NCBI GenBank assembly: GCA_029237775.1
Contig: JAQZBR010000003.1
Location: 124,001 to 188,000 of the forward strand
Reading direction: 5' to 3'
DNA: 64,000 nt
Source of the DNA: Bacteroidota bacterium
GTDB lineage: Bacteria > Bacteroidota > Bacteroidia > 2-12-FULL-35-15
Position numbers and translations under genes: made by a program. This document shows, piece by piece, positions 29,160 to 32,063 of this stretch (position 1 is its first letter; each line of letters starts with the position of its first letter). The notes beneath the pieces were generated by a model. That model was not told the origin of the DNA. It searched no databases and saw only the letters and a list, made by a program, of their open reading frames with translations.

Positions 29160-29906
29160 CTAAAGCCGCAGTCCTAAAGTGACAGCAATATTGTTATCAC
29201 GGAAGTTGATATTGTTAGAATCATCATTTCCAGGATAGTGTATTCTTGAAAAGCCGCGTTTAAAAGTTACTTCGAAGAAGATAGCTTTGGATGAGGCCCT
29301 GTAATTTTTTTGCACTCCCAGCCCTCCATGATAAAAGGCATTAAAGCCGGGGAGAAGAAGTTCATGCTCAAAACCTATTGAGCCTTTACCATCGAAAGGA
29401 GTTGTTTCGGTTGAATCATTGATGATGACTACATAAGATCCAAAAATATATCTGAAGCCGATGCCACCGAACAAATAAGGCGTTGCGGCACTTTCCTTGT
29501 CGCTGTTAAACGCAAGCTTTAATCCTATTGGCAGCTGCGCTTCATTGTATCTGATCTCATGCGTATAAGCAAAAGATTCATCATACAAATAAGTAAATCC
29601 GGGCTTTTCGTAATAACCATGAAAGGTGAGTCCTTGGCTAAGATATTCCAGTCCGCATATAAAATTTGTTTTTCTTCCGAGAATGAGCTCTGCTTTGTAA
29701 GCGACATTCGCCCCTATTTTTGCTTTTGTCCCGATTGAAAAATGCGGATCATTTTTATATAAAGTGAATACAGCACCTGCACTCATGCGATGGCGAAGCT
29801 TTGCATCTTTGCGGCCCTCTTGTGAATAGGACAGAAGAGGTAGTACGAGTAAAATAAATTTCACCACGGAGGCACAGAATGCACGGAGGTTCACAAAGAA
29901 TTTCAT
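29160..29906 (-). CDS. outer-membrane beta-barrel protein with repeat-derived signal peptide start
   Basis: A 248-residue protein. After the signal peptide (ILLVLPLLSYSQ) the mature part alternates hydrophobic and polar residues as in 8-stranded OmpA/PorT-like barrels (KLRHRMSAGAVFTLYK, NFICGLEYLSQGLTFHGYYE, FGGIGFRYIFGSY, GFNAFYHGGLGVQKNY) and ends NNIAVTLGLRL, a typical C-terminal strand. The first residues MKFFVNLRAFCASVVK are the translation of the ACCACGGAGGCAC repeat at 29860-29900, so the start codon and signal n-region come from a mobile repeat. ATG overlaps the GxxExxY stop (ATGA), suggesting coupling. A GTG inside the repeat (MVKFILLV) is an alternative start. Function unknown. Confidence 0.75.
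   Translation of the reverse strand: MKFFVNLRAFCASVVKFILLVLPLLSYSQEGRKDAKLRHRMSAGAVFTLYKNDPHFSIGTKAKIGANVAYKAELILGRKTNFICGLEYLSQGLTFHGYYEKPGFTYLYDESFAYTHEIRYNEAQLPIGLKLAFNSDKESAATPYLFGGIGFRYIFGSYVVIINDSTETTPFDGKGSIGFEHELLLPGFNAFYHGGLGVQKNYRASSKAIFFEVTFKRGFSRIHYPGNDDSNNINFRDNNIAVTLGLRL
29860..29900 (+). repeat. left inverted repeat of the GxxExxY element
   Basis: TTCACCACGGAGGCACAGAA then TGCACGGAGGTTCACAAAG. Translated on the minus strand it gives FFVNLRAFCASVVK in the adjoining outer-membrane protein gene. Confidence 0.75.
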
Positions 29907-30325
29907 TGTAATGGTAGTTTTGAAAATTCTTCAGTGACTAATGATACGACCGATCGCGAAATATTCATCGTATGAAAATTAATCAATAGACCTTTCGGCT
30001 TATTAGTTAATTTTAGATATGTTAGTAGCTGTGCTTCAAACACCGGTATTAATGCTTCGACAGCCTTCAGCTCAATAATAATATGATCATTAACAAGGAG
30101 ATCAAGTTTTAAAGGAGTACCCAGGCTTCTGTTTTTATAACTGATAGGGACAGCGACCTGCGATTTAACATCCAGGTTGTTTAATCTTAACTCTTCAATA
30201 AAACACCCATGATAAACAGATTCTAATAACCCCGGTCCGACCTGTTTATGAACTTCGATAGCGCATCCAATGATTTTGAATGATAGTTCATTTAGTCCTT
30301 TTTGTGTAACCACTTTTTTCTCCAT
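29903..30325 (-). CDS. GxxExxY protein (PD-(D/E)XK nuclease-like family)
   Basis: A 140-residue protein. The name-giving motif is GLLESVY within GPGLLESVYHGCFIEEL; LDLLVNDHIIIELKAVE supplies the Asp and Glu-x-Lys of a PD-(D/E)XK core (Pfam PDDEXK_3). The C-terminal part KGLLINFHTMNISRSV (LLINF) is also typical. I start at the ATG at 30325; an in-frame ATG at 30365-30367 adds MNLFTTEARRTLSN, which is translated repeat end and overlaps the amidohydrolase gene. Function unproven; a nuclease acting in element maintenance is inference. Overlaps the downstream gene by ATGA. Confidence 0.85.
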   Translation of the reverse strand: MEKKVVTQKGLNELSFKIIGCAIEVHKQVGPGLLESVYHGCFIEELRLNNLDVKSQVAVPISYKNRSLGTPLKLDLLVNDHIIIELKAVEALIPVFEAQLLTYLKLTNKPKGLLINFHTMNISRSVVSLVTEEFSKLPLQ

Positions 30326-30326
30326 G

Positions 30327-32063
30327 TTACTTAGTGTTCTCCGTGCCTCCGTGGTAAACAAGTTCACCGTTAACGTAAGTTGAAATAACCCTCACCTTCG
30401 GCACACTATCCAATTCACACTTCATAATGTCCTTATCCAGAATTACAAAATCAGCGTATTTTCCTTTTTCAATGCTTCCTTTTTTATCATCTTCATAATT
30501 CGCGTAAGCTCCCCAGATCGTCATGCCGCGCAGAGTGTTTTCGCGAGATAAAGCATTCTCGATTTGAAAGCCTCCTTCCGGAAAACCTTTAAGGTCTTTA
30601 CGTGCAGTCGCAGCATAGAATGTGTACATCGGATTGATATTTTCAACCGGAAAGTCCGTTCCTAAAGCAATCCTTCCGGATGCTTTGAGAATATCATTAT
30701 ATGCATAAGCATTTTTCATCCGTTCTTTGCCGATACGTTCCTCGGCCCAATACATATCTGAGCTTGCATGAGTCGGCTGAACCGAAGCTATCAGGTTTCC
30801 GTTCTTGCTCATCTCCTCGAGTAGCTTCAGATCTTCAGGCGAACAGATCTGGAAATGTTCTAGTCTCCAGCGGATGTTTTTAAAATTCGTTTTTGACGTT
30901 GAGTCCGAGATCTTGCATTCTTTCATAGTCGCTGAGTAGAGCTTAAGAAAGAATCTCACTGCTGAGTCACCAATGCAATGCGTATTCATCTGAAAGTTTT
31001 TGTCAGCCATGTTGATGGCTGCGCTGTCATAATGTGCTTTTGCATGCAGGAAAAAACCGCTGGTTTCTGGTTTATCAGAATATGGCTGCAGTAGACAAGC
31101 TCCGCGGGATCCTAATGCTCCATCACCATAGAATTTAAATGAGCGCACAGTTAGCCTCGGTGTAACATAAACACTGTTCTTGAAATAATAATCTTTGTTT
31201 TCTTTATTATCACTAAGCATTGCATACAAACGCATTTTTAGATCATCAGATTTTTGAAGGTCGTCAATGGCATTGATGATGTTTTTATCAAGACCTGCAT
31301 CATCAACAGTAGTGAGTCCTACCGAGAAGCAATTCTCTTGAGCAGTCAGTAAATATTTTTTTATAGCCTCTTTCGTTGCTTTCGGGATCACATTTTTAAC
31401 AAGGTCAACGGCATTGTCAACTAGAATCCCCGTTAGCTTCCCGTTTTTCATTTCAATAACACCGCCACTGATCTTGGTTTCAGGCGTTATTCCTGCTTCA
31501 CGTAAGCCAGCAGTATTAACAAGCGCAGCATGACCATCAATTCTCTCGAGGAAAACAGGTTTGTCAGGAAATAGTGAATCCAGGCTCTTCAGATCTGGAT
31601 ATTCTTTTTTTGTCCAGTCGTTCTGATCCCATCCTCTTCCAATGATCCATTTGTTGTTCGGATCGTTCTTGAATTCTTTGATCCTTGTGATCACCTCACT
31701 GAAAGATTTTGTCGCAACAAGATTTATTTCGTACAAACCTTTACCATAATGGTAAAAATGACAATGTGAGTCTATGAAGCCCGGATAAACTGCTTTACCC
31801 TCAGCATCAATATTTTCTTTCGCTTCGTATTTCTGACTGATCTCTTCGTTGGATCCCACAGCTATGAATTTTCCGTCTTTTATAGCAAAGCTTTGGGCAT
31901 TGCTGAAAGTGGAATCAACAGTATAGATCACTGCATTATGTACGATGAGGTCTGCTTTTTCCTTGGATTGTGAGCAAGCGATGAGAAAAATTAAAAATAT
32001 ACCACTAAGGCACTTAGGCCACAAAGTATTGATCTCTGATCTCTTATTTTTTAGCTTTTTCAT
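30327..32063 (-). CDS. amidohydrolase family lipoprotein (YtcJ-like)
   Basis: Metal-dependent hydrolase of the YtcJ/amidohydrolase-3 type, 578 residues. Lipoprotein signal with lipobox LIAC (Cys near residue 30). Metal-site landmarks: VYPGFIDSHCHFYHYGKG, WIIGRGWDQNDW, LERIDGHAALVNTAGL, MNTHCIGDSAVRFFL, RLEHFQICSPEDL and GTDFPVENINPMYTFYAA. The end EKGKYADFVILDKDIM and VISTYVNGELVY is normal; the following HGGTENTK comes from the GxxExxY element's repeat. The first 21 residues (MKKLKNKRSEINTLWPKCLS) are encoded by another repeat pair at 32001-32092. So both termini of this protein are element-derived. Substrate unknown. Confidence 0.85.
   Translation of the reverse strand: MKKLKNKRSEINTLWPKCLSGIFLIFLIACSQSKEKADLIVHNAVIYTVDSTFSNAQSFAIKDGKFIAVGSNEEISQKYEAKENIDAEGKAVYPGFIDSHCHFYHYGKGLYEINLVATKSFSEVITRIKEFKNDPNNKWIIGRGWDQNDWTKKEYPDLKSLDSLFPDKPVFLERIDGHAALVNTAGLREAGITPETKISGGVIEMKNGKLTGILVDNAVDLVKNVIPKATKEAIKKYLLTAQENCFSVGLTTVDDAGLDKNIINAIDDLQKSDDLKMRLYAMLSDNKENKDYYFKNSVYVTPRLTVRSFKFYGDGALGSRGACLLQPYSDKPETSGFFLHAKAHYDSAAINMADKNFQMNTHCIGDSAVRFFLKLYSATMKECKISDSTSKTNFKNIRWRLEHFQICSPEDLKLLEEMSKNGNLIASVQPTHASSDMYWAEERIGKERMKNAYAYNDILKASGRIALGTDFPVENINPMYTFYAATARKDLKGFPEGGFQIENALSRENTLRGMTIWGAYANYEDDKKGSIEKGKYADFVILDKDIMKCELDSVPKVRVISTYVNGELVYHGGTENTK
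30329..30358 (-). repeat. right inverted repeat of the GxxExxY element
   Basis: Minus-strand reading TTTACCACGGAGGCACGGAG then AACACTAAGT. In the amidohydrolase frame it encodes the final YHGGTENTK and supplies the TAA stop. Confidence 0.75.

Follow-up and report, generated by a model that had tools for sequence, protein, structure and literature searches.

In a 64,000-nucleotide stretch of DNA from a Bacteroidota bacterium (the window), the gene of an outer-membrane β-barrel protein appears to take its start codon and the n-region of its signal peptide from the terminal repeat arm of a GxxExxY element. The preferred reading, with a probability of roughly 0.8, is a single GxxExxY insertion in the ancestor of three species (the window genome, G000, and its relatives G009 and G028), in which the barrel start was replaced, the arm became the n-region and the change was tolerated through cleavage. 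The element would have inserted once, where almost no gap separated the amidohydrolase and barrel genes, in an ancestor shared by the three species after the split from G032, and the ancestral barrel start would have been lost. Barrel translation would now begin at an ATG overlapping the GxxExxY stop codon, probably by termination-reinitiation, with the 3′ arm read as the n-region. The arm-derived N-terminus would be tolerated because an n-region should require little beyond positive charge and because signal peptidase would remove the arm-encoded residues, leaving the mature barrel unchanged. This reading of the tolerance leans partly on established knowledge of signal peptides. The sequences themselves show the insertion, the empty sites, the arm-derived codons, the retention in three species and the selection on GxxExxY, whereas use of the ATG, the cleavage site, reinitiation and tolerance through cleavage are inferred from them.

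Organization of the element and its neighbors

The features of the region, all on the minus strand, are as follows.

29160..29906: outer-membrane β-barrel protein (OMP_b-brl_2), 248 aa; PF13568, E 2.5e-8
29823..29858: remaining signal peptide, h- and c-region FILLVLPLLSYS, from the sequence; predicted cleavage after S28
29859..29906: arm-derived start codon and codons 2-16 (MKFFVNLRAFCASVVK), putative signal peptide n-region; arm match, with counterparts in G009 and G028
29903..29906: barrel start and GxxExxY stop overlapping as ATGA; likewise in G009 and G028
29903..30331: GxxExxY gene (PDDEXK_3), 142 aa; PF13366, E 8.1e-39; TIGR04256, E 1.7e-40; pN/pS 0.14-0.24 between species
30327..30359: arm-derived amidohydrolase C-terminus, VYHGGTENTK and stop; ancestral ends VYSSK and VYSNK, each followed by the stop, in G009 and empty-site relatives
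30330..30359: right arm of the element, + strand sequence CTTAGTGTTCTCCGTGCCTCCGTGGTAAAC; inverted match to the left arm
30327..32063: amidohydrolase (Amidohydro_3) with a lipoprotein-like signal, upstream operon gene; PF07969, E 2e-90
32001..32027: second, A-type arm (GCCTAAGTGCCTTAGTGGT), read as TLWPKCLSG in the amidohydrolase signal n-region, from the sequence

The GxxExxY protein scores 138 bits against TIGR04256 (curated cut-off 35) and 133 bits against PF13366 (cut-off 22), both above the cut-offs. The window copy is flanked by inverted arms, which are no formal criterion of either family, and the element can be described from its sequence as inverted CCACGGAGGCACGGAG-type arms that enclose a nuclease-like gene. 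As read from the DNA, both ends of the element are used by the two neighbors, one as the amidohydrolase C-terminus and the other as the barrel N-terminus. The amidohydrolase C-terminus is arm-derived (VYHGGTENTK) in the window and in G028; G009 retains the ancestral end. A search of one literature library for GxxExxY and PF13366 found only two papers that use the name GxxExxY and no account of such an element or of its fusion to neighboring genes. Across the class, GxxExxY copies carry short terminal repeats, with several arm types at their 3′ ends (CTCAGCGG, CTTAGTGG, CTATGTGG, CTCCGTGG and others).

The barrel ORF (29906..29160) translates as MKFFVNLRAFCASVVK, followed by FILLVLPLLSYSQ and EGRK, and the 5′ end of the gene reads ATG AAA TTC TTT GTG AAC CTC CGT GCA TTC TGT GCC TCC GTG GTG AAA TTT. 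An earlier note on this DNA had identified codons 1-16 as the translated left arm, and this identification is borne out by complementarity to the right arm and by the excess of the repeat over shuffles and control. The left arm (29860-29878) and the right arm (30340-30358) are inverted and 89% complementary over 19 nt. With up to two mismatches, GTGCCTCCGTGGT occurs in five copies in the window against 0.46 expected, a number that none of 100 shuffles reached, and genome-wide the repeat core pattern has eight matches versus none for a reversed control pattern. The note's further statement that ordinary signal sequence follows the arm is correct except that F17 separates the arm from the ILLVL quoted there. 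The ATGA that it reported is present in all three species, and the coordinates agree: the barrel ATG (29906-29904) and the GxxExxY TGA (29905-29903) form a 4-nt stop-start overlap.

Filled and empty sites in related genomes

Matches to the barrel protein were found in 27 of the 59 genomes searched; the named records point to uncultured Bacteroidetes, and those relatives that carry names are metagenome assemblies. The operon runs in the order transporter, SDR, amidohydrolase and barrel, with the addition of a CAP protein in some species. Only the window genome and its relatives G009 and G028, whose barrel proteins are 69-73% identical, have a GxxExxY element between the amidohydrolase and barrel genes. 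G009 and G028 share the 3′ junction ATGATTTTCTCCGTG, and the filled-site barrel N-termini are MKFFVNLRAFCASVVK in the window and MIFSVSLRSLCFSVVK and MIFSVKLRVLCASVVN in the relatives.

At empty sites, found in G032, G001, G033, G010, G007, G025, G016 and G003, the amidohydrolase and barrel genes adjoin, and in none of these eight genomes are arm residues present at the barrel N-terminus. The comparison with orthologues lacking the repeat, proposed in the earlier note, thus upholds its claim that the barrel start codon and signal n-region come from the element, since the empty-site orthologues differ in their N-termini and start elsewhere. In G033, the barrel ATG follows the amidohydrolase stop at 0 nt, and in G001, G003, G016 and G010, apparent GTG or TTG barrel starts overlap the amidohydrolase stop or lie near it; gaps of some tens of nucleotides are observed in G032, G007 and G025. 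Because the two genes already abut or overlap in several empty-site relatives, the element would have adopted a coupling that was already there and not established a new one. The junction of G035 is without the GxxExxY element but contains a separate arm pair that lacks an ORF.

Age and number of insertions

A tree of the SDR, amidohydrolase and mature barrel sequences unites the filled-site species in one clade (100/98), with the empty-site genome G032 as its sister (99/98). Between the three species, the GxxExxY gene has a pS of 0.77-0.85, near saturation, and a pN/pS of 0.14-0.24, similar to that of the mature barrel protein (0.14-0.27). Near-saturated synonymous sites and the low pN/pS, a mark of purifying selection, indicate that the insertion is old and that the inserted gene has been kept. 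The arm codons of the barrel gene give a pN/pS of 0.4-0.7 over few sites (∼11 synonymous). Their pS among the three species (codons 1-16) is 0.29-0.58 versus 0.71-0.83 for the mature gene, again over few sites, and this lower value suggests DNA-level conservation or conversion of the arms.

A rival history, in which related elements entered this junction independently three times (or twice) in place of one old insertion, is considered unlikely. Such a history would fit the differences between the arms of the species, the weak grouping of the three filled-site copies in the GxxExxY tree (86/73), the position of the G009 5′ arm after an intact amidohydrolase stop, and an operon that has demonstrably been struck repeatedly. 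It is opposed by the clade formed by the three species, by the 3′ junction common to G009 and G028, and by the shared ATGA, which does not directly precede the arm in the other sampled GxxExxY copies. Under one insertion, the different amidohydrolase ends of G009 and of G000 and G028 require a later small deletion; independent insertions are the alternative.

Probable barrel start and predicted signal peptide cleavage

The barrel start was scored with a start-context model built from 40 window genes. In this model the ATG receives 5.95 bits, more than 34 of the 40 genes, and it is again the best-scoring start in G009 and G028; these scores support ATG 29906 as the probable barrel start. The ATGA also points to reinitiation after the GxxExxY stop, that is, to putative termination-reinitiation coupling, and the note's view that the element's own gene drives barrel translation is a proposal of the same standing. 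A start at GTG codon 14 or 15, which would leave MVKFILLVLPLLSYSQ or MKFILLVLPLLSYSQ as a short signal peptide and the upstream arm as an untranslated leader, is very unlikely. Although the codon-14 GTG is found in all three species and a compact signal peptide would result, the GTG codons within the arm (codons 5, 14 and 15: -1.7, -4.4 and -11.1) score lower than any of the 40 window genes, and each species has its ATG scoring above them. Moreover, the frame and the ATG are kept, with no indels in the arm, across species whose synonymous sites are near saturation. The weakest alternative, an ancestral N-terminus that resembles the repeat by chance, has practically nothing left to it, as the repeat core is high-copy against zero matches of the control pattern and the absence of arm residues from empty-site orthologues already refutes it.

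The barrel signal peptide is predicted to be cleaved by signal peptidase I after LSYS (S28), with small residues at -1 and -3. The amidohydrolase would be cleaved by signal peptidase II before the lipobox Cys, which would remove its arm residues as well.

Recurrence in the operon

Arm-derived signal n-regions are found in the amidohydrolases of the window (TLWPKCLSGIFLIFLIACSQ), G028 (SVKLCVLCASVVIFFSLSSCS) and G035 (SKCPKCLNGYLFFLLVGLVSCS). The G005 amidohydrolase has tandem arms, SVSKCSKCLSGKIFFLLLLLSSC, directly 3′ of another GxxExxY gene, and in G011 the arm encodes part of the amidohydrolase h-region. The barrel protein of G035 also has an arm-derived signal n-region (KPKWPKCLSGKIFLLL), and those of G006 and G031 have degenerate arm forms. 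In G005 (L166/L259), this second GxxExxY copy lies at the neighboring SDR-amidohydrolase junction and is followed by the tandem arms, which are read as the amidohydrolase signal sequence.

Five arm pairs without an ORF were folded into hairpins with an ATG in or near the loop. The hairpin z values are -9.1 (G028), -6.4 (G035 barrel), -4.9 (G011) and -3.8 (G035 amidohydrolase); that of the window amidohydrolase, -1.6, is not significant. Among 28 arm-pair elements, a count biased by some loci fetched because of this operon, all cases in which the frame of a loop ATG continues across the arm into a long gene belong to this operon. A broader reading is possible but tentative: palindromic elements may act as portable start modules that repeatedly replace the starts of exported genes at zero-gap operon junctions, with the loop or the GxxExxY gene carrying the start, the 3′ arm serving as the n-region, and arm and signal segments swapped between species, as in G035.

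In the G035 barrel gene (L050), the DNA of the arm and signal segment is 85% identical to that of G031 and 51% identical to that of the close relative G003; the mature part is 84% identical to G003 and 72% to G031. The arm and signal segment thus look, at the DNA level, as if exchanged as a module.

Relation to known repeat-encoded N-termini

Repeat-encoded starts and signal peptides are already known in principle. In Yersinia, an RU-2/YPAL element fused to YPO1552, a putative exported protein, provides the first 30 residues and part of the signal peptide, and the fusion is conserved in Y. pestis and Y. pseudotuberculosis (PMC2759123, PMC2229807). As judged from sequence, the repeat described here likewise supplies a start codon and part of a signal peptide. 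Unlike YPO1552, which is 100% conserved in two very close species, the present case concerns a conserved barrel protein for which empty sites are documented; the element carries an ORF whose stop overlaps the barrel start, and arm recruitment recurs within the operon. Rickettsia palindromic elements (RPEs) are repeats fused in frame within protein genes (PMC2229807, PMC10969869). Compared by description, and with Rickettsia in a different phylum, RPEs resemble the present arms as multi-copy repeats translated in frame in a conserved protein and as tolerated selfish DNA. Unlike RPEs, the arms here belong to ORF-bearing or hairpin elements and replace the N-terminus, where they lie in a region that cleavage is predicted to remove. 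What is new is the documentation of the site before and after insertion, an element that bears an ORF and has a stop-start overlap, the apparent use of both its ends by the neighboring genes and the recurrence within a single operon.

The empty sites and the tree document how a mobile element can replace the beginning of a conserved gene with no evident damage: the acquired residues belong to a signal peptide whose removal is expected. That two neighboring junctions of the operon were affected suggests that signal n-regions are a safe harbor for insertions where genes are densely packed. N-termini in genomes of this kind can derive from repeats and are then unsuitable for homology or domain calls.

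Arms at other loci

At pattern-found loci, 75 distinct sense arms lie upstream of genes, and 30 of these are open in frame, most with an ordinary ATG soon after the arm. No clear arm recruitment outside the amidohydrolase and barrel genes was found in this set. The L118 transporter and L215 were rejected as arm-recruited starts, given plausible TTG starts after the arm; a few in-frame arms are followed by a late ATG (e.g. L120, L187 and L254). Many arms end just 3-25 nt upstream of the ATG of ordinary genes, so that arms often form the immediate leader. The window itself contains a MITE-like pair of A-type arms (60722-60865), located ∼130 bp apart and without an ORF.
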